Source: a virus. From it: a stretch of DNA of 64,000 bases. The stretch is taken from positions 1 to 64,000 of the IMG/VR virus record IMGVR_UViG_3300005366_000001; one strand, given 5' to 3'. Within the stretch, counting starts at the first letter, position 1. Every line of letters starts with the position of its first letter. Both the position numbers and the translations under genes were made by a program. Shown here piece by piece: positions 2,055 through 63,920 of the stretch. Below the pieces are notes generated by a model. The model was not told the DNA's origin and searched no databases. It saw only the letters and a program-made list of their open reading frames with translations.

Positions 2055-3275
2055 ATGAGACGGATTAATGAGATTCGAGAGCAAGCGACGCTGACAAATC
2101 ATTCTCTTGTGGCGCTGGTGCGTAGCGGCAACGTGCAGGAGTTGGAGTTGCGCATTGTCGCAGCGCTCTCCCAGCTTAAAGACGGTGGAGCGGCGGCGAT
2201 GTATGCACCGTCGTCTTTGCGCGAGCTAAGCAGACTACTGGACGCGATTGAGCAAAGTATTCGCAGTCTGTCTCAACCGCTTGGACCAAACGAAACCGCA
2301 ACGCGAGTGACACTGGCTGCTGACCACGGCTTGGCTTACGTGGCCGCGTTACGAGAACGATTATCGGCAGACTTCGCCACCGCCCCAACCGAGACGAGCG
2401 CGCGATGTCCTGACTGTGGACATGAATCGCTGTTTAGCGATGAAGGGACAGTACCCTGCCAGAAACCTGTCCGCAGACCTGAAAGCAAAGACAAGTCAAC
2501 CACCGAGACACATGCCGATGACTTTATAGCCTGCGGTTGCAAGTACGTATTCCCTGCATCAACTGAACAGGCGGGGGAGAGCGTTGTGCTGGTGCGCCGT
2601 GAAGACGCGGCAAGAGCGGCTGAGTTAGTCAACGACTCCGTCAAAGCGAAGGGCAAGTTTGCGGCAGCGATACTGATGATGCCGCCTTATCCTGCGCCGG
2701 ACTGTCCGATCTGCGGATACTCGATCGACAATCAAGGGCTTTGTGTTTTGGATGCTGCGCACACCGCCCCTGCTCCAGTAGCGCAACCAGAAGCCGATCC
2801 GTGTCCGCTGCATTCGCCTTGTGGTCAAGCTTGGCACGATTGGTTTGAGCGTGTAGGCGAACACGCGACCATTGATGTTGTGAACGCCACCGCCAACCTC
2901 GTTATTATCGAGCGCGAAATCCACGCAAGCACTACCACACCATCCACTACAGCAGTAGAAGCAGCAAGGGAGATCGCTGCGCTCCTGTTTGCCCATATCT
3001 TTCATCCGTCTGGCATGGGCGGTATCAGCGAAGAGCGCGAGGCCGAGATCGCCGCCATTATCTCTCGCTACTTACCAGTACAGCAACCAGAAGCCGATCC
3101 GTGTCCGCCGCACTCTCCCTGCGGTAAAGCATGGCATGAGTGGTTTGGACGCGTCGGCCAACATGCAACCATTGATGTTGTCAACGCTACCGCTACTCTC
3201 GTTATAAAAGAACGCGAAATTCACGAAAGCGCCACCACTGTTGGAAGCGCAACAAGAGAAATAAATCATGAGTGA
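2055..3275 (+). CDS. Cys-rich protein with a 100-residue internal repeat period
   Basis: This 406-residue protein is read from ATG 2055, 8 nt after AGGGAG; an upstream ATG at 2037 has no good ribosome site. It has a zinc-ribbon CPDC (about residue 116), a CPICGYS motif near residue 220, and two units beginning ADPCP(L/P)HSPCG and ending IEREIH or KEREIH. The DNA of the units starts near 2782 and 3082, exactly 300 nt apart. The function is unknown; duplicated Cys/His modules suggest metal or nucleic-acid binding. Confidence 0.7.
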   Translation: MRRINEIREQATLTNHSLVALVRSGNVQELELRIVAALSQLKDGGAAAMYAPSSLRELSRLLDAIEQSIRSLSQPLGPNETATRVTLAADHGLAYVAALRERLSADFATAPTETSARCPDCGHESLFSDEGTVPCQKPVRRPESKDKSTTETHADDFIACGCKYVFPASTEQAGESVVLVRREDAARAAELVNDSVKAKGKFAAAILMMPPYPAPDCPICGYSIDNQGLCVLDAAHTAPAPVAQPEADPCPLHSPCGQAWHDWFERVGEHATIDVVNATANLVIIEREIHASTTTPSTTAVEAAREIAALLFAHIFHPSGMGGISEEREAEIAAIISRYLPVQQPEADPCPPHSPCGKAWHEWFGRVGQHATIDVVNATATLVIKEREIHESATTVGSATREINHE

Positions 3276-41678: not shown

Positions 41679-42170
41679 CTATGCTGAAAACCCCGGCTTC
41701 TTGCGGATTAGCTTGGATTCGTAGAGTTCGTTGATGAATGCGGAGAAATCGTCCGCTAATTGAACAGCCGAGATCGAAACCGCAGACATGTCGATATTTT
41801 CTGTGTCTGTGCGCGCATCCTTTGCCTTGAATTTCAACCTTGAAGGAGCGCCGCTATCAAAGTCTACAAACCACCATGAATGGACAATTCGATTTCGATC
41901 AGCATTGATCTTTTGCGCTCTGGAAATCAAATGGTCAAATCTTTTGACTGTCTCGGGAACCTTAACTTCGTAGTGAAAGATAGACGATAGAAGATCAAGC
42001 AGTTTGCTAAAGGGGACCATAGCTGTAACGCGCTGGCCGATATTCTCATCAGTAGCGGCCATGATCCAGATCAGTCGGACGATCAGAAATTCGAGATGTT
42101 GGAAATTTACGACTACTCGACCTACATCTCTTACGTGATCTTCAGGTAGTAACGATTTGTTTGCCATCAT
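41679..42170 (-). CDS. HEPN-like protein
   Basis: This 163-residue protein is helical and contains NADRNRIVHSWW, an R-x4-H motif in the position typical of HEPN domains, which are RNases in many defence and toxin systems. Two long helices precede it, as expected. It overlaps the upstream partner by ATGA and sits in an operon with an HTH-metalloprotease. A toxin or anti-phage function is inferred, not shown. Confidence 0.55.
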   Translation of the reverse strand: MMANKSLLPEDHVRDVGRVVVNFQHLEFLIVRLIWIMAATDENIGQRVTAMVPFSKLLDLLSSIFHYEVKVPETVKRFDHLISRAQKINADRNRIVHSWWFVDFDSGAPSRLKFKAKDARTDTENIDMSAVSISAVQLADDFSAFINELYESKLIRKKPGFSA

Positions 42171-42643
42171 GCCGCTTGCTTCTTGCTCTTTGCAATGTGC
42201 TCTTGTTCGGCAACGTCTGGCCCAAAGTCGAGCGGTAACTGTATCGACTCGCCTTTGTTGTAGAACTCGTTAAAGCTATCCACGTCCTGTTTGAGTTGAT
42301 AACAGTCACCGATGATTTGATTGCGGCGTTGCCTAAAGGCGGTTTCGATAAACGAGTGGGCGGCCTTCCTCATGTCGCCCCACAGCGTTACCAGCTTGCC
42401 GCCTCGACGGACTCTGGCCGCATGGTTCATCCGAACACGCCGACCGCTTGGATCGTCCTCAAAGTGCTCGCGCAGCGCCTCAGCGAAATCTTGCGCGCAC
42501 TGGTTTAATGCCGCTTCATCGTGACGTTGCCACTTCTCATTGATGATTGCCCATCGTGCCATTTCACGTGTGGTCGCGGTTCGCTTACCTGTGGCCTCGC
42601 AAAACTCGAAGTACAGGTCTAACATTTGTTGCTTGTAACTCAT
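42167..42643 (-). CDS. conserved phage protein near ImmA/IrrE genes
   Basis: This 158-residue protein has the widely seen pattern FEFCEATGKRTATTREMA, QCAQDFAEALREHFEDDPSG and RRVRMNHAARVRRGGK, followed by FRQRRNQIIGDCYQLKQDVD. Phages often carry it next to ImmA/IrrE-type genes, but no activity is known. It is mostly basic and helical. It is coupled to the HEPN-like gene. Confidence 0.65.
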   Translation of the reverse strand: MSYKQQMLDLYFEFCEATGKRTATTREMARWAIINEKWQRHDEAALNQCAQDFAEALREHFEDDPSGRRVRMNHAARVRRGGKLVTLWGDMRKAAHSFIETAFRQRRNQIIGDCYQLKQDVDSFNEFYNKGESIQLPLDFGPDVAEQEHIAKSKKQAA

Positions 42644-42652
42644 GTCAAATCC

Positions 42653-43792
42653 TCATGCTACACGGCGGTTACTATCGTTAAGGCTGGGTTTATAGCCCCA
42701 GCCATCGGTTAAGGCTGAATCCGAAATCAGGTGTCTAACCTTAACGAGTAAGTCTCTATACTGAGAGTAGGGGATCTCGCCTCGGTATTGCAGTTGGCCC
42801 ACAACAATTCCCGCGTTGGCGTTCTTTAGCTCTGCAAAGGCTTTAATCTTGCGCTTGGAGTAAAGCGGCCTAACACGAGCTATAAAGTTTTCTAAGTCCG
42901 CTTTCTTTACAGCAAACTCAGCCGCAAAAAGATCGGCTCGCTTTTCCATTTCCGGCTTGTCATTCATGTACTTGGCGTCCTCGCCGACAAGGTTTAAATC
43001 CAGGATCGGATTGTCTTGTCCCTCATGGTGCTTAACGTGGTGCATTTCATGTAAGAGCGTGTGCCAAAACCCATCTATCCGATCTAATCGTTGCGAAAGA
43101 CCGATCACAGGTGAGGTTCTATCTAGCCATGTACAAACGCCATCAATTCGCGTTGTCGGCAAAGCCTCAACTAAAACAAATCGAATACCGCTCTCCGAGA
43201 GAATACGCGGCACATGCCTGACTTCTTCAGGATCGCGCATCAACGGACGCAAGTTTTCCAGTGCCTCGTTGCAACGACGATCCGTGTATTTAACAGCAGG
43301 AACATATTGAGCCAATTGACGCACGCGAACCATCCACGCGACTTGCGCCGAAGTTGCTTCCATTTCAGACGCCGACTTTCTCGCCGCAAAATTGATCTTT
43401 GGCTGCTCTTCCATTGAGGCAATCCCTAAGAACTTGCAGATCCGTTCCTCTAACAAGCCCATGTCGGCGCTCGGCTCAATCCAGCCCCGTTTGATCATGT
43501 CTTTGACCGGATAGTTTTCATAAAGCCGAAGCCGTTGGGTTACGCCCCCGTTATCGTGCTCAAGTTTCGTTAGGCGATAAGCGGCCTCTAACGCAAGCCA
43601 GTATTCGGCTGTATTACCTAGTGCGGTTGCTAACCCCTGAGCAACCTCAGGATTAATCGGCTTTGTGCCAGCCACTAAGCCGCTGACCTCGGAAGGGTGG
43701 CGTCCGAGGATGAACGCTAGATCGCGTTGCTCCCAGCCGCGACGCTCTAGTTCTTCCTTTATTACTGAACCGGGAATAATGATCTCACTCAT
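42653..43792 (-). CDS. HTH (HigA-type) plus ImmA/IrrE metallopeptidase
   Basis: This 379-residue protein has an XRE helix-turn-helix (about residues 8-65: RRGWEQRDLAFILGRHPSEV) and a C-terminal zinc metalloprotease with LLHEMHHVKHH (HExxH, about residue 243) and a following E-rich helix. ImmA/IrrE proteins cleave repressors to induce mobile elements, and HigA-type HTHs bind operators. A fused protein could be both sensor and regulator. AAAGGAGG precedes the ATG, and a 36-bp palindrome lies upstream. Confidence 0.82.
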   Translation of the reverse strand: MSEIIIPGSVIKEELERRGWEQRDLAFILGRHPSEVSGLVAGTKPINPEVAQGLATALGNTAEYWLALEAAYRLTKLEHDNGGVTQRLRLYENYPVKDMIKRGWIEPSADMGLLEERICKFLGIASMEEQPKINFAARKSASEMEATSAQVAWMVRVRQLAQYVPAVKYTDRRCNEALENLRPLMRDPEEVRHVPRILSESGIRFVLVEALPTTRIDGVCTWLDRTSPVIGLSQRLDRIDGFWHTLLHEMHHVKHHEGQDNPILDLNLVGEDAKYMNDKPEMEKRADLFAAEFAVKKADLENFIARVRPLYSKRKIKAFAELKNANAGIVVGQLQYRGEIPYSQYRDLLVKVRHLISDSALTDGWGYKPSLNDSNRRVA

Positions 43793-45341: not shown

Positions 45342-46160
45342 CTACTTTTCGTCATAGCTATCGAGCAGAGCAGGCATTACGTAAACGTGATGAAAGAATT
45401 GCTCGACACAAGCAATCATCGCTTGCGCGTCTTTTTCTTCAAACGAATTCAGATCATCGTTGTCGTCACCGTGTAATTTTTCATTCGCGGTGAGCCTTAC
45501 TCGGTGAGCCATTCTCTTTAACGGTTCGGTAATTTTCCCTTGAGTAAATAGGTCGTCGATCTTCGCGTTAAGATTCTTACCTTTGGCTCCTAACTGCTTA
45601 CAGCTCGCCTCGACCGATCTCCGGCACATCGCAACGGATGCTTTGTACGACTTAACCCAAAAACAGCGCATGGCCTCCGCAAAATCTTCGGCTATATCTT
45701 GGGGGACGCTTGAGTCAACAACATCTTGAGGCTTACCTACAGGATAATGATGCAGATAGCCGAGTTTTGATGGCTCATTAAGGCTGCGCGTTTTTAGGGC
45801 TGTCGCTAGAATGTGCTCAAGACATCCTTGACACTGCATCCCAACAGCAAGTCTCTGCGCCCACTGTCCAAGTTCTTCCGCGTGGACCGTCGTTACTTGT
45901 ATAAAGACGGTTCCTTGTTGACAGTGCGGACACGTGCCTCGCAGAGAAAATTTGCCGGATTCAGCTTCGAGTTCTGTAAGGTCCATGTGCTTAGGCCAGT
46001 CTTTCCAGAGAACGGCCAACGAGTCACAAAGAAAAGAAATTAGGGAGCGCCCGTCTTGGTTGAAGTTCTCCGGCGCATTGTCTACTGATTCAACGCTTTT
46101 TCCAAGTCCTAACATTTTCATTAAAAGGGCAGGATCGATAGTTTCAGTAATAATCACCAT
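45342..46160 (-). CDS. DUF4145-type protein with zinc ribbon
   Basis: This 272-residue protein has an N-terminal CPHCQQG...CQGC ribbon (about residues 77-114) and a C-terminal DUF4145 helical domain: KSYKASVAMCRRSVEASCKQ, AHRVRLTANEKLHGDD. DUF4145 occurs in restriction and defence loci and has a HEPN-related fold. It overlaps the 46144 gene. An anti-phage or superinfection role is possible. Confidence 0.7.
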   Translation of the reverse strand: MVIITETIDPALLMKMLGLGKSVESVDNAPENFNQDGRSLISFLCDSLAVLWKDWPKHMDLTELEAESGKFSLRGTCPHCQQGTVFIQVTTVHAEELGQWAQRLAVGMQCQGCLEHILATALKTRSLNEPSKLGYLHHYPVGKPQDVVDSSVPQDIAEDFAEAMRCFWVKSYKASVAMCRRSVEASCKQLGAKGKNLNAKIDDLFTQGKITEPLKRMAHRVRLTANEKLHGDDNDDLNSFEEKDAQAMIACVEQFFHHVYVMPALLDSYDEK

Positions 46161-46698
46161 TTATGAGGCAAAGCCCCGTTTGCCCGTTCGCAGCCGGGCT
46201 TTCGCCAATCGACGAACCTTCCGATTCCGATGTGCGGTTGATCTCTTGCCCATGACTCAGCCTCTCCAATTCAACGATGCGCTCTCGTGCAGCCTTTAAT
46301 GCCCCCTTCACGATTCGGTGCGCTTGTAGCGACACGGTTGGCTCCTTGCGGACTAACGGCACGTCGTGGATCTCGCTATCAATTTCTTTGTTGCCGTTCT
46401 CTGTGAGTAGGGCCTGAATACCAATCTTCAGACCAGTATCGAACTGCATCCGCATCAATAGGCCGATATACTTGCCGATAATCAACCGTTGGCCTTCTGT
46501 CAGCCCGTGCATGATTTCGCCAAATTCTTTCTTTAGCCGCTCGATTGATTTGCGCTGCCTGTCCGTCAACCCGCTCCGGTGCATCCAGTAACGTTTGACG
46601 AGCGATGCTATGTGGTCTGTAAATCCTTCGGTCCCGAGCAGTCGGGCGATCACGACGGCGCTGTTAACTCGTGGTTTTGGGTTTCCAGTATCAGGCAT
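46144..46698 (-). CDS. hypothetical helical protein
   Basis: This 184-residue protein is basic and helical (SIERLKKEFGEIMHGL, LIIGKYIGLLMRMQFD), ending in a Ser/Gly-rich tail. Its stop overlaps the DUF4145 gene start, so the two are co-translated. No family is recognised. Confidence 0.55.
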   Translation of the reverse strand: MPDTGNPKPRVNSAVVIARLLGTEGFTDHIASLVKRYWMHRSGLTDRQRKSIERLKKEFGEIMHGLTEGQRLIIGKYIGLLMRMQFDTGLKIGIQALLTENGNKEIDSEIHDVPLVRKEPTVSLQAHRIVKGALKAARERIVELERLSHGQEINRTSESEGSSIGESPAANGQTGLCLINGDYY

Positions 46699-46724
46699 CT
46701 TGCTCCTAGTCTAAGGGATTTAGG

Positions 46725-47159
46725 CTACGCTGCTTCCTTAAACTCATGAAAGCCCGGCGTACTTGATAAATGGTGAATGTTGTCATCTGCCGATTTCACG
46801 CACTGCACACATGATCCAGACTGAATTTCTTTCGCCTTCTTTACGCCCTCGGCGATGTTGGTTTTCACAGCATCAGGTAGAACTTTCTTAGCCCGAGACT
46901 TCCTTAACTGAAACTTGTGTTGATACTCACCGGGGCCATGTATCGGATCATTCTCCGCGGCCCCGCAGACTTCGCTATCTGTGAGCGGGAACTTACAAGG
47001 ATGACTCTCCATTGCCTTGATGTTTGCCGGCGCAGATTGAGATCCTTCTGCTAGTGGAATAAACTCATCCAAGATTAGATCGAGTACGTCTTTGTTCTTT
47101 CGCAACTCTGCGATTATTTCCTTTGCTCGATTTTGGATTAGTGGAATTCTGCTTCTCAT
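46725..47159 (-). CDS. hypothetical protein with Cys/His residues
   Basis: This 144-residue protein is read from ATG 47159, 9 nt after GAGAGGA. A helical N-terminus is followed by HPCKF...VCG and SCVQCVKSADDNIHH, possible metal ligands. Neighbours are accessory genes. The function is unknown. Confidence 0.55.
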   Translation of the reverse strand: MRSRIPLIQNRAKEIIAELRKNKDVLDLILDEFIPLAEGSQSAPANIKAMESHPCKFPLTDSEVCGAAENDPIHGPGEYQHKFQLRKSRAKKVLPDAVKTNIAEGVKKAKEIQSGSCVQCVKSADDNIHHLSSTPGFHEFKEAA

Positions 47160-47179
47160 AAACGTTCGTCCTCTCAATA

Positions 47180-47434
47180 TCAGATTGCCGGTTGAAACTC
47201 GCCCCACTCTGGCTTGTGGTCCGCAAGTAGAGCCGCGTTAAAGTCGGCCATGTTCTTAATTGAATTCCATCGCTCAGCGAGTGTCTTATGGACCGGACAT
47301 TGAGCACTCGGACGCGCCTGACGAGAGCCAAGCGGAATCAACGCCCCAAAGCAGGTACAAAGCCCACGCTTAGCTGCCAGATCCGCGATACTCAAATGGC
47401 AGTCGCATTGTGGATTGTCACACGTCTCATTCAT
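47180..47434 (-). CDS. small Cys-rich protein
   Basis: This 84-residue protein begins with TCDNPQCDCHLSIADLA and continues CTCFGALIP...CPVH, at least two zinc-binding clusters. GAGGG precedes the ATG. It is probably a DNA- or protein-binding mini-protein of the accessory operon. Confidence 0.6.
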   Translation of the reverse strand: MNETCDNPQCDCHLSIADLAAKRGLCTCFGALIPLGSRQARPSAQCPVHKTLAERWNSIKNMADFNAALLADHKPEWGEFQPAI

Positions 47435-47459
47435 CGTTTTACCCTCTCAGTTAAAAACA

Positions 47460-47492
47460 ATGGGCGATGAAGTTTCCCCCGACACCGCCCAT
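47460..47492 (-). terminator. rho-independent terminator (leftward)
   Basis: ATGGGCG and CGCCCAT (47460-47466 and 47486-47492) form a 7-bp stem; leftward the transcript continues TGTTTTT. It follows the 47545 gene stop. Confidence 0.75.
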
Positions 47493-47544
47493 CTCAAATA
47501 ACGTCTCAATGGTTTGTCACCGCCCCAAGACGCTATCAAGAGGA

Positions 47545-48060
47545 CTATTTCGTCAACTGTCTTTGCACCCATGCCAGCATCCGTTGATAGCGGGCTTCTG
47601 GAGTGATCGGCACCCAAGCCTTAGGTATTTCGCCATACCATCGGTACGGGCCTTCCAATGTAACGAGATCCGAACCGTCTAACTGGATGTCGTTAATTTC
47701 GACCACTTTCCACGCAACCAGACGCGGCATTCCTAACTCCATGCCGATCTCTTCCATCTCGCCACCGCCATCGATCTCATCGTCAAAGTGATCAATACCG
47801 ATGTCCGCAAGTTGCTCACGAGTCTCGGCAATCAGATCCCTGCCCTTGTGTTTCGCAAGCGCCCCGATGGCGCAAACGTCGCCTTCGCGATCAATCATCT
47901 TGTGGGCTATGAGTCTCTTATCGGGGAGCGCAAGCAAAGCGGCCTCCAACTCGTGCAACGCAGCCTGCCGGGCTTTACCCTTAAGCGAGCGCTGGCAGTT
48001 ACCCTGCCACAGCGCAAACTGACCGGGATACTCTTCGTCTTCTGAGTAGCCAATTCTCAT
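47545..48060 (-). CDS. conserved phage protein of unknown function
   Basis: This 171-residue protein opens MRIGYSEDEEYPGQFALWQG and has ARQAALHELEAALLALPDKR and REGDVCAIGALAKHKGRDL. These features mark a protein found in many actinobacterial and other phages without known activity. GAGGAGG precedes the start. The N-terminus resembles an acidic regulatory domain. Confidence 0.65.
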   Translation of the reverse strand: MRIGYSEDEEYPGQFALWQGNCQRSLKGKARQAALHELEAALLALPDKRLIAHKMIDREGDVCAIGALAKHKGRDLIAETREQLADIGIDHFDDEIDGGGEMEEIGMELGMPRLVAWKVVEINDIQLDGSDLVTLEGPYRWYGEIPKAWVPITPEARYQRMLAWVQRQLTK

Positions 48061-59861: not shown

Positions 59862-60029
59862 ATGGAAACTCATTTAGTCTGTAACACTCAACCTCTTTGT
59901 CTCTGTCTCGGTGAGGACACGGACAAGTATTCAAAGTACGAATGCGAATGCACTGGCAACATCGTAGGCTTCAGCAAAGAGAAGTGTGAGAACTGCGGAG
60001 CGCCAATGGAGGAGACTGTAGATGCATGA
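59862..60029 (+). CDS. small Cys-rich protein
   Basis: This 55-residue protein has eight Cys, including LCLCLGED, CECTGN and CENCGAP, which could bind two zinc ions. It is coupled to the next gene by ATGA. Confidence 0.55.
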   Translation: METHLVCNTQPLCLCLGEDTDKYSKYECECTGNIVGFSKEKCENCGAPMEETVDA

Positions 60030-60280
60030 GCACACAGCCAAGTTTGTTTGATTCAGTTATCCCAGACTACGTTGATCGATGTCTTGAGTTGGGCGCAAAG
60101 ATTGTCAAACGCGGCAAGGGCACGGTGGGCACGGTGTTGTGTCCGTCCTGCAAGTCAGAAAAATATCTCAGGCCAGAGTTTCAAGATGGAACAATCATCG
60201 CAGATCATTGCGGCTGCGGACACTCATTCAAACCTGAAGAGGCCATGATCCTGACGTTTCAAGGCGTGGATAGAGCATGA
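60026..60280 (+). CDS. zinc-ribbon protein
   Basis: This 84-residue protein shows CPSCKSEKYLRPEFQDGTI and HCGCGHSF, a rubredoxin-like zinc ribbon. It starts in the previous stop (ATGA). It is probably a nucleic-acid or protein adaptor upstream of the methyltransferase. Confidence 0.6.
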   Translation: MSTQPSLFDSVIPDYVDRCLELGAKIVKRGKGTVGTVLCPSCKSEKYLRPEFQDGTIIADHCGCGHSFKPEEAMILTFQGVDRA

Positions 60281-60299: not shown

Positions 60300-61733
60300 A
60301 TGAGGCTTGTTTCCTTGTTCAGCGGTATAGGCGGATTTGACTTAGGATTTGAACAGGCCGGGATGGAGTGTGTTCAGCAAGTAGAGATTGATAGAGATTG
60401 TCAGAAGGTTTTAGCGGCAAGGTTTCCTAACACAAAGAGGTTTGAGGATGTCACAAAGATCGGAAAGCTTGAGCCAGCCGATGTTATTTGCGGAGGTTTC
60501 CCCTGCCAAGACTTGTCTGTGGCCGGCAAGCGCGCGGGCTTGGCTGGAGAGCGGTCAGGGTTATGGTTCGAGTTTTTACGAATTATTGAATCAAATCTCC
60601 CGCGATGGATTGTCATCGAGAATGTGCCCGGCCTTCTTAGTTCCGATGGGGGACGAGACTTTGCCGCAATCCTTCGAGGGTTGGTCCAATGCGGGTATGT
60701 GCTCGCGTGGCGGATCTTTGATGCTCAATATGACGGAGTGGCACAGCGCCGCCGCCGTGTGTTCATTGTCGGAAGTCTTGGAGACGGAAGTTGCGCCGAA
60801 ATACTTTTTGAGTCCGAAAGCGTGTCGTGGAATCCTCCGACGCGCAGAGAAGAGGGGCCGGGAGTTGCCGCCACAATTAGAGGCGGCACTAGTGGCGGTA
60901 GCACACACGGAAAACCCAACGGAAGTGATGAACGAGAAATGATCGTTGCGGCAACCTTAGACCAACGAGGACGCGGACCAACGGATGCCGTGATGATGAA
61001 CCTACAAGTTGCCGGATCACTTGCTGCGCACTCACTGGCTCACGGTCACGCAATGACTACGCAGCAGGCCGCCGAGTCAAATCATCTTGTGTCAATGCCT
61101 CTTAAGGCAAAGGCGAATAGTAGCCACGATGAATCCCACGAGACTTACATCTATCACGAAAACATAGATGGCAAGGTTTATGAATCAGCGGAGTGTCCAG
61201 CATTGCGCGACTTCCAGAAGGATACGCCGTTAGTAGCGATAGCATTCGCAGAAAATCAGCGAGCAGAGATCCGCACTAGTGACATCGCGCCTCAGTTGTC
61301 GTGTTCAGGCGGCAAGCCGGGAAGTGGTTATCCTGCAATAGCGTTCGGATGGAACAAGAGCGCTTCGCAAACGATGCGAGTTGATGACGAAACAACCGAC
61401 GCTTTGCAGTCAAGCCCACAGAGCAACCCCGCGATAGCGTTCAGCGCCGGTCAGGGGTCAAAAGCGCGAAGCCTTGCGGAGAGCTACGAGCACACGCCGC
61501 CCTTGAAAGCGGCAGACAGCGGACTCAACCGAGTGCCCGCAATTAGCAACGGCTTCGGAGTCCGGAGATTAACGCCGCGAGAGTGCATGAGACTTCAGGG
61601 CTTCCCTGACAGTTGGTTTGATGGAACAGGGCTTAGTGATTCAGCGATGTACCGATGTTTGGGGAACGCCGTCGCTGTGCCCGTTGCCAAGTGGATTGGC
61701 GAGCGCATAATGAAAGTCGCGGCAAAAGGATGA
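60300..61733 (+). CDS. dcm: DNA (cytosine-5-)-methyltransferase
   Basis: This 477-residue protein has the C5-MTase motifs: I LFSGIGGFDLGFEQAG, IV GGFPCQDLSVAG (catalytic Cys), VI VIENVPGLLSS, VIII DAQYDGVAQRRRRVFIVG, and the C-terminal RRLTPRECMRLQGFPDSWF with LGNAVAVPVAKWIGERI (motif X). A long low-complexity insert (about residues 190-400) lies between VIII and the target-recognition end. It methylates cytosine to shield phage DNA from restriction. GGAGGAC precedes the ATG. Another conserved frame is overprinted at 60442. Confidence 0.9.
   Translation: MRLVSLFSGIGGFDLGFEQAGMECVQQVEIDRDCQKVLAARFPNTKRFEDVTKIGKLEPADVICGGFPCQDLSVAGKRAGLAGERSGLWFEFLRIIESNLPRWIVIENVPGLLSSDGGRDFAAILRGLVQCGYVLAWRIFDAQYDGVAQRRRRVFIVGSLGDGSCAEILFESESVSWNPPTRREEGPGVAATIRGGTSGGSTHGKPNGSDEREMIVAATLDQRGRGPTDAVMMNLQVAGSLAAHSLAHGHAMTTQQAAESNHLVSMPLKAKANSSHDESHETYIYHENIDGKVYESAECPALRDFQKDTPLVAIAFAENQRAEIRTSDIAPQLSCSGGKPGSGYPAIAFGWNKSASQTMRVDDETTDALQSSPQSNPAIAFSAGQGSKARSLAESYEHTPPLKAADSGLNRVPAISNGFGVRRLTPRECMRLQGFPDSWFDGTGLSDSAMYRCLGNAVAVPVAKWIGERIMKVAAKG
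60442..60942 (+). CDS. conserved frame overprinted on the methyltransferase
   Basis: The +1-type frame of the same DNA encodes 166 residues with the sequence SPKACRGILRRAEKRGRELP, SFEGWSNAGMCSRGGSLMLN and VCSLSEVLE, a conserved phage hypothetical that I recognise as occurring near or within dcm regions of other phages. Both frames are open for 501 nt, and both carry family-like sequence. No strong ribosome site precedes the ATG; a coupling or frameshift from dcm is possible. Confidence 0.5.
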   Translation: MRMSQRSESLSQPMLFAEVSPAKTCLWPASARAWLESGQGYGSSFYELLNQISRDGLSSRMCPAFLVPMGDETLPQSFEGWSNAGMCSRGGSLMLNMTEWHSAAAVCSLSEVLETEVAPKYFLSPKACRGILRRAEKRGRELPPQLEAALVAVAHTENPTEVMNEK

Positions 61734-62296
61734 AACGCTCTCGCATAGGACCAAAGACCTACGAGGCCGCACTTGCTTTGAGGATCGCTCAGGACGCACG
61801 AAGGCGGGAGAAGGTGTCTCAGAAGCCTCATAAGTCTCAAATCGCCTCAGGGAAGCCGCTAGAACGTAAGCAGGGACTATTACAGCGCCGTAGCAAGCCG
61901 ATGAAAAGAGTCTCGGGAGCAGCCAGTCTGAAGAATAGGGCTTGGAGAGAGTTCTCAGTCTTCATTCGGCGTCGCGGCACAGATGAGCGCGGTTATGTAA
62001 AGTGTGTTACCTGTTCAGTCGTAAAGCACTGGACGGTGATGCATGCCGGACACTTTGTCTCAGGCCGTGGTAATTCAATTCTATTTGATGAGCGGGGATG
62101 CTGGGCACAGTGCTTCAATTGCAACGTGACCTTCTGCGGAAATCTGTCGGCGTATGAAAAGGTCATGCAGGAAAAGTTCGGACAGAAGGTCGTTGATGAG
62201 TTGAAGTCCCAGCGAGACAAGACGGTGAAGTGGCTACCTGATGAGCTAAAGAGCATTGAGGGGCACTATCGTCGGATTAATCGGAGCAAAAAATAA
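61730..62296 (+). CDS. ninG: NinG/Rap-type recombination nuclease
   Basis: This 188-residue protein starts at ATG 61730 inside the dcm stop region after AAAGGA. A basic N-terminus precedes the zinc/HNH-like core VKCVTCSVVKHWTVMHAGHF, VSGRGNSILFDERGCWAQC and FNCNVTFCGN, as in lambda NinG, which helps process Holliday-type branches. It is adjacent to other recombination genes. Confidence 0.82.
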   Translation: MKRSRIGPKTYEAALALRIAQDARRREKVSQKPHKSQIASGKPLERKQGLLQRRSKPMKRVSGAASLKNRAWREFSVFIRRRGTDERGYVKCVTCSVVKHWTVMHAGHFVSGRGNSILFDERGCWAQCFNCNVTFCGNLSAYEKVMQEKFGQKVVDELKSQRDKTVKWLPDELKSIEGHYRRINRSKK

Positions 62297-63233: not shown

Positions 63234-63920
63234 ATGGCTCAACGTTGGACAGAGGACGATCTCTACAACTACCTAGCCAAGAAGGCTATGCAGCAAGATC
63301 GTGTTCAGAAAGTTGCGCAACCAATTGAGCATATTCCAGAAGTCTCCACAGGGAAGAGTTATAGCTTTACTGTGTTTGGTGAGCCACAGCCCGCAGGATC
63401 GAAACAGGCATTCCCTTTACTCGACAAGAAAAGGATTTGCAAGTGCGGACCCGTTGTCGGACCACTCCCGCTCAGGCGACAGAACGGCAGCATCATTGTC
63501 AACGTCACTGATGACAACAAGGATACAAAAGCATGGCGAAACCGCGTTTCCCAAACAGCACGAGAGGAATACTCAGGACCACTATTGACTGGCTTTGTAT
63601 CGCTGGAGTGTGTGTTTTATTTGCCGCGGCCAAAAGGTCATTTTGGAACTGGAGCGAATGAGCATCGGATTAAGCCATCAGCACCAGCGTTGCCGGGAGT
63701 GAAGCCAGACGTTGATAAGCTTCTAAGAGCCGTCTCGGACGGTCTTACGCAGGCGAAAAACGTGTACGCTGATGACGCGCTCATTGTCGATAGTATCGGG
63801 CGCAAGCGTTACGGCTCCCCACCAAGAGTAGAAATAGTCATTCAAGAGATCGTATGTGAGCCAAACGAGAATCAGCCGGAATTGTTCCAATCGGAGGGCA
63901 GATCCCCGTGGGAAGTTTAG
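63234..63920 (+). CDS. rusA: RusA-type Holliday junction resolvase
   Basis: This 228-residue protein has the RusA signature: FTVFGEPQPAGSKQ, LECVFYLPRPKGH, KPDVDKLLRAVSDGL and VYADDALIVDSIGRKRYG with three conserved Asp. It resolves branched DNA in phage replication. Together with NinG and ERF/YqaJ it forms a recombination module. Confidence 0.88.
   Translation: MAQRWTEDDLYNYLAKKAMQQDRVQKVAQPIEHIPEVSTGKSYSFTVFGEPQPAGSKQAFPLLDKKRICKCGPVVGPLPLRRQNGSIIVNVTDDNKDTKAWRNRVSQTAREEYSGPLLTGFVSLECVFYLPRPKGHFGTGANEHRIKPSAPALPGVKPDVDKLLRAVSDGLTQAKNVYADDALIVDSIGRKRYGSPPRVEIVIQEIVCEPNENQPELFQSEGRSPWEV

Follow-up and report, generated by a model that had tools for sequence, protein, structure and literature searches.

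A widely conserved gene overprinted on phage C5-cytosine DNA methyltransferases, with an N-terminus resembling sliding-clamp-binding motifs

Classical overprinted phage genes such as phiX174 D/E and lambda Rz/Rz1 encode two proteins in different frames of one stretch of DNA, with an internal start. Among systems nearer to the locus described here, the ShiLan element is a mobile insertion carrying an out-of-frame HNH gene in a third frame, with uninterrupted methylase on both flanks (PMC11855218). In the two-polypeptide C5-cytosine methyltransferases (MTases) M.EcoHK31I and M.AquI, a small subunit supplies motif IX, and in M.AquI motif X too (PMC3404938). Clamp-coupled cytosine methylation has a precedent in eukaryotes, whose maintenance methylase Dnmt1 carries a motif for binding PCNA (PMC9690074). 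The bacterial clamp-binding motif is QL(S/D)LF with wide tolerance (PMC9690074), in which Gln-1 and the hydrophobic or aromatic residues at positions 4 and 5 are emphasised (PMC4549789).

The window analysed here is a stretch of 64,000 nucleotides, part of a 65,410-base virus record (IMGVR_UViG_3300005366_000001). Its plus strand encodes a C5-cytosine DNA methyltransferase of 477 amino acids (positions 60300 to 61733; PF00145, E=6e-71; PHROG 116, E=1e-96), in which motifs I, IV (PCQ), VI (ENV), VIII (QRRRR), IX and X are found in order in one frame, as expected of a C5 MTase. The locus is present at 100% identity in two IMG/VR contigs, and a third contig matches over the part that it covers. 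Just 5' of the MTase is a small cysteine-rich ORF (60026-60280; CPSC...CGCG), zinc-ribbon-like and with sub-threshold family matches only. On the 3' side, a NinG/Rap-like gene (61730-62296) probably starts at ATG 61730, where its start and the MTase stop overlap as ATGA; a gene for a RusA-like resolvase lies farther downstream (63234-63920). Most of the phage genome is on the plus strand, with a block of minus-strand ORFs at 41679-43792 and 45342-48060.

A preliminary description of this DNA had proposed two family-like proteins in overlapping frames of the MTase gene, the second from an ORF of 501 nt. This ORF was found as described at 60442-60942 on the plus strand, in the +1 frame of the MTase, with 166 codons plus stop; it begins with TTG, its frame is open from 60415, and it includes SPKACRGILRRAEKRGRELP. 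Motifs VI (60618-60626) and VIII (QRRRRVFIVG, 60744-60773) lie within the overlap as had been noted, and so does motif IV (GGFPCQ, 60492-60509), which had not been listed; motifs I, IX and X fall outside it. The second gene, in the +1 frame of the MTase, begins shortly ahead of motif IV and ends about 50 codons beyond motif VIII.

Like the ShiLan element, the shifted ORF is a second, out-of-frame ORF within a phage DNA methylase gene. Unlike it, the ORF overlaps MTase motifs IV to VIII, has no HNH motif, is always in the +1 frame and is clustered on the MTase tree. No HNH match was found in any of 90 members of the family, and the window protein had no Pfam match; neither an HNH gene in an alternative frame nor an insertion interrupting the methylase, the marks of a ShiLan-type element, is met by the shifted ORF.

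Homologues of the shifted frame were abundant, and the idea of a dual-coding gene, which their absence would have refuted, stands. The window shifted protein as tblastn query matched 162 phage records, and the C-terminal core as query matched 530 plasmids, mostly P1-like dmt. Combined pattern and tblastn scans gave at least 600 stretches with shifted-frame homologues in IMG/VR and nearly 600 rows from bacterial genomes. Typical lengths of the shifted open frame are 135-220 codons. Hosts include Escherichia, Vibrio, Mycobacterium, Streptococcus, Lactococcus, Acidobacteria, Treponema, Planctomycetes and a cyanobacterium; the range covers Proteobacteria, Acidobacteria, Actinobacteria, Firmicutes, Spirochaetes, Planctomycetes and Verrucomicrobia together with a cyanobacterial phage.

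One member has been annotated before. ORF14 of Streptococcus phage MM1 is the same gene, lying in the +1 frame inside ORF13 (DNA methylase) and starting MTSQQYQMTLF. It is annotated as 'putative methyltransferase', and the matching family PHROG_16143 as 'DNA methyltransferase', although the shifted protein is not an MTase. The PHROG_16143 profile matched the window protein (E=2e-8) and 79 of 90 shifted proteins. Neither the MM1 ORF14 record nor that of PHROG_16143 states the dual coding, the conservation or the breadth, and no description of this dual coding was found in the literature (open-access papers only, so that this absence is weak evidence). In phage P1 the shifted frame of dmt (AF234172, 66710-67201) includes the SSKACAGILRRGEKR region, and no CDS is annotated for it in the P1 record. 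As a separate observation on dmt, in that of phage RCS47 (L008, 1416-3203; compare L323, P1 dmt) residues 5-69 of the window MTase match 1416-1628 and residues 69-202 match only from 2649 to 3203, about 1 kb further on. The C5 homology is interrupted there, as it would be if the C5 domain held an inserted N6-adenine domain.

For co-location, a profile of the shifted core was combined with an MTase profile. In the first set the core was in the +1 frame of the MTase ORF in all 161 loci, one of which overlaps a fragment of an MTase in a different frame as well. To address the bias of a search by the shifted frame, a second set was drawn by MTase-frame patterns only and so was not selected on the shifted frame; in it 79 of 80 loci had the core in +1. 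All 80 bacterial loci did so as well. Over the three sets, 321 loci were profiled and the core was +1 of the MTase throughout, save for the one MTase-sampled locus without a core; contigs partly recur between sets, and the two viral sets reduce to 201 distinct cores. No standalone shifted gene away from a C5 MTase was seen in these 321 loci from viral and genome collections. The likeness to other phage proteins that had been put forward earlier is borne out by the number of homologues, but not in the sense of independent standalone genes, since every copy examined by profile lies +1 of a C5 MTase.

The gene is not a feature of C5 MTases in general. Among 30 C5 MTases found with Pfam in bacterial genomes that carry the gene, 8 had the shifted core, with 0-1 stops per 150-codon stretch; the remaining 22 gave no shifted-core signal and had a mean of 5.3 stops. 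On MTase trees, presence of the gene required 2-3 changes, against about 19 with shuffled labels; a larger alignment neither shows nor excludes a single origin. As far as sequence comparison can show it, the overprinted gene is confined to one MTase subfamily.

At positions where the MTase amino acid is the same, identical codons in the MTase-sampled set were observed 1.21-2.71 times as often as expected over MTase codons 46-210, and 0.99-1.25 times outside the overlap. The ratio climbs from 1.21 (codons 46-60) to 2.71 (codons 181-195) and is 1.07 directly past the shifted stop. In a second architecture (class 2) the shifted frame opens about 26 codons after PCQ, against about 10 codons before PCQ in the other; the gene starts about 27 codons after PCQ, a displacement of about 37 codons towards the 3' end of the MTase gene. 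In class 2 the codon-identity ratio is 1.1-1.4 up to residue 105 and reaches 1.6-3.0 only beyond the new ORF opening. The boundary of constraint moves with the opening of the ORF, and the constrained stretch therefore tracks the ORF and not the MTase motifs. In 31 close pairs, wobble substitutions per site were 0.21 in the overlap and 0.45-0.46 elsewhere. The substitution check that had been proposed by codon position has accordingly found the shifted frame strongly constrained, where neutral rates would have refuted the claim.

Base sharing at MTase codon positions 1, 2 and 3 was 0.47, 0.64 and 0.67 in the C-terminal core (MTase codons 159-205), and 0.73, 0.81 and 0.39 in motifs IX-X. In the core no MTase codon position is better conserved than the wobble base, and position 1, which is the wobble position of the shifted frame, is the least conserved, so that the shifted frame is the dominant coding frame there. 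In a set selected on the shifted frame, amino acid identity over the core was 0.66 in the shifted frame and 0.57 in the MTase frame. The overprinted gene is conserved as a protein, and over its C-terminal core it is more strongly constrained than the MTase.

We also redrew MTase codons synonymously. Redrawn overlaps had a mean of 4.5 stops, and the median chance of staying open was 0.005. The shifted-core HMM gave a median score of 12 and a maximum of 53 on such shuffles, against a real median of 108. For the window, the shifted-domain HMM scored 117.9 with the real sequence and no more than 35 after redraws; with a mean of 4.5 stops per locus in the redraws, the window ORF is beyond chance.

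Could there be no gene at all, the pattern merely shadowing the conserved MTase protein or reflecting an RNA or DNA element that constrains the DNA? In a +1 overlap, positions 1 and 2 of the MTase codons dictate part of the shifted sequence, and the shuffles do retain a residual HMM score. However, wobble positions are frozen across the ORF only, stops are absent where 4.5 are expected, other C5 MTases do have stops there, and initiation signals are enriched (see below). The synonymous-constraint profiles, the shuffles and the MTases without the ORF rule out the shadow. As for an RNA element, a codon-frame signature such as the weak conservation of MTase position 1 in the core would be unexpected. 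We consider the absence of a gene extremely improbable. Computation brings dual coding close to proof, and it is virtually certain that the shifted frame exists as a coding gene, although its product has not been directly detected.

In some loci the MTase frame is broken or switches and the shifted ORF is intact (L148, 2876-3734; L084, 3308-4244; L319, 2667-3945). These may be sequencing errors, or the MTase may have been lost with the hidden gene kept. Candidates for same-frame fusions were rejected, since all five cases resemble MTase frameshifts or broken genes and not designed fusions.

The shifted gene has initiation signals of its own. Among 126 distinct shifted ORFs that carry the N-terminal motif described below, a start codon (84 ATG, 27 TTG) stands mostly 1-2 codons before the glutamine, and 15 lack any start codon in the 7 codons preceding the motif. 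A Shine-Dalgarno (SD) match of at least 4 nt was found upstream of 77% of shifted starts, compared with 19% of control positions. A typical site is TTTAAGGAGTGGCCAG-ATG, in which AAG GAG doubles as MTase codons. Computation shows that the shifted gene begins at its own internal ATG or TTG with an SD site. In the window there are two candidates on the plus strand. The first is AAAGAGG followed by ATG 60448-60450 (60434-60450 in all), read from the window sequence and in line with the family-wide SD enrichment; the second is TTG 60469-60471, two codons 5' of the N-terminal motif, which is the usual spacing in the family. The closest relative (L003) has a TTG at the same place as 60469, with GGAGG upstream. 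Translation probably begins at ATG 60448 or TTG 60469, and not at TTG 60442, but this is not settled.

These signals bear on whether a separate protein is made. Programmed ribosomal frameshifting would instead give a fusion to the MTase N-terminus, in keeping with a frame relation that is always +1 and with the ORFs that have no obvious start codon. We judge it very unlikely: starts usually stand 1-2 codons before a conserved N-terminal motif with SD enrichment, the constraint boundary follows the ORF start, and no conserved slippery site was seen, although no systematic search was made. With homologues in both frames, reduced synonymous change confined to the overlap and a start signal of its own, the locus has what is expected of an overprinted gene. 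That it is a true overprinted pair, in which the second gene is expressed by internal initiation, is highly probable, without evidence as yet from ribosome profiling or mass spectrometry.

The N-terminus of the family reads M-x-Q-[LMS]-[STD]-[FLMI]-[FLW]. In the window it is QPMLF (60475-60489, plus strand), which fits Q-x-x-L-F and is like sliding-clamp-binding peptides (consensus in PMC9690074, PMC4549789); in pneumococcal phage MM1 it is QMTLF with AAGGAG upstream. The broad motif was present in 106 of 147 class 1 genes and in 0.65% of synonymous shuffles, and the strict form Q[LM][SDT][LMI]F in 43 of 147 and 0.16%, respectively. In class 2 the strict form was present in 16 of 47 genes, against 0.3%. 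The strict motif stood at the N-terminus in 26 of 134 proteins and nowhere else in them, with starts placed using the motif; when starts were chosen by SD alone, blind to the motif, the broad motif was within the first 8 residues in 69 of 132. The regular expression was picked after inspection of the data, and the resemblance to a clamp-binding motif was found after the fact and has no binding data behind it. The form expected of clamp-binding proteins, a Q-L-x-L-F-like peptide in a disordered terminus, is met, weakly in the P1 branch. Many members have QLTFW or QSDFW in place of the canonical QLxLF, and P1-branch members are mostly without the motif, so clamp binding may not be universal. Class 2 loci such as L094, L155, L101 and L116 start about 37 codons later, yet many retain an N-terminus such as MQLTMFDLF. 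This suggests that the motif was re-made at a new position, over another MTase segment (ANAIDxxR-like).

The shifted product is about 150 amino acids long. AlphaFold2, with 90 natural rows, gave a mean pLDDT of 65, with 70 for the N-terminal ten residues, about 50-65 for the middle and 95-98 for residues 121-150, where two helices are predicted (123-136 and 142-152). In the window this C-terminal helical-hairpin core, which contains invariant columns, is KYFLSPKACRGILRRAEKRGRELPPQLEAALVAVA (60799-60903, plus strand), and a conserved VCSLSEVLET segment in the family alignments lies at 60757-60786 on the same strand. The predicted structure is best read as a short peptide at the N-terminus, followed by a flexible middle part and a small Arg/Lys-rich helical hairpin. 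There was no significant match to solved structures by PDB sequence profile or Foldseek, and no significant known domain in Pfam, NCBIfam or PADLOC.

We propose that the shifted protein would be translated by internal initiation from the MTase mRNA and so be made together with the enzyme. Its Q-[LMS]-[ST]-h-[FLW] peptide might dock on the host DNA sliding clamp, for which there are no binding data, with the disordered middle as a tether; the hairpin might bind the methyltransferase or DNA, though nothing links it to either. Newly replicated phage DNA could in this way be methylated near the fork, ahead of host restriction enzymes. That the protein tethers methylation to the replication clamp is an inference which we hold only tentatively and consider less likely than not.

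The same N-terminal motif data would suit a protein that binds the host clamp and redirects or slows host replication, not methylation, its place in the MTase gene serving only early co-expression. A clamp-binding motif can inhibit, as in SocB (PMC9690074). Among the loci examined, however, no copy occurs apart from a C5 MTase, which suggests a link to methylation, and the gene is retained by temperate phages and by P1-like plasmids, to which a constant block of replication would be costly. We regard this role as unlikely. The tether is preferred to a host-directed inhibitor on two grounds: the gene is strictly linked to one MTase group, and eukaryotic Dnmt1, with its PCNA motif (PMC9690074), sets a precedent.

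Strict co-occurrence with one MTase subfamily would also be expected of an accessory subunit or regulator of the MTase without a clamp role, the N-terminal peptide serving for MTase binding or translation control. Two-polypeptide C5 MTases do exist (M.EcoHK31I and M.AquI; PMC3404938), and like them the shifted gene is a second polypeptide associated with a C5 MTase. They differ from it, because their small subunit supplies motif IX. The window MTase is already complete, with motif IX (61563-61610, plus strand) and motif X in its own frame outside the overlap, and the shifted protein does not qualify as a motif IX-bearing second polypeptide of the M.EcoHK31I type. The two genes of M.EcoHK31I reportedly overlap in different frames likewise. 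Since a start displaced by about 37 codons still leaves many members with a QLT-h-F N-terminus, we find a purely accessory role doubtful, though less so than host-directed inhibition.

Among DNA phages, long overprinting on the same strand is rarely backed by strong evidence for both frames. The case described here recurs in hundreds of phages, prophages and plasmids across many bacterial phyla and has apparently been under constraint for a very long time. The earlier finding of two family-like proteins is correct and larger than first stated, both frames having homologues and the shifted one being constrained: it is a widely conserved hidden gene family, whose breadth, start signals and N-terminal motif the preliminary description did not foresee. 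Such a gene is hidden even in P1, among the best-studied phages, and callers that allow one gene per locus overlook it. It draws attention to an accessory protein in phage DNA modification that has gone unstudied, and its many natural replicates make it a tractable model of dual coding.

Like Dnmt1 with PCNA and like bacterial clamp-binding proteins, the shifted protein has a glutamine-led hydrophobic peptide at an unstructured terminus (PMC9690074, PMC4549789). Unlike them, it would carry this peptide on a separate, overprinted protein and at the N-terminus, not the C-terminus, and no binding data are at hand. The fullest form of our proposal is about as tentative as the tether alone: phage cytosine methyltransferases of a large clade, P1 Dmt among them, may carry an ancient overprinted gene whose product tethers methylation to the host clamp and so outruns restriction, a prokaryotic counterpart of Dnmt1-PCNA. 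Compared with phiX174 D/E and lambda Rz/Rz1, the shifted gene has a much wider host range, and it lies inside the catalytic domain of an enzyme, where in the core the overprinted frame is the dominant one.
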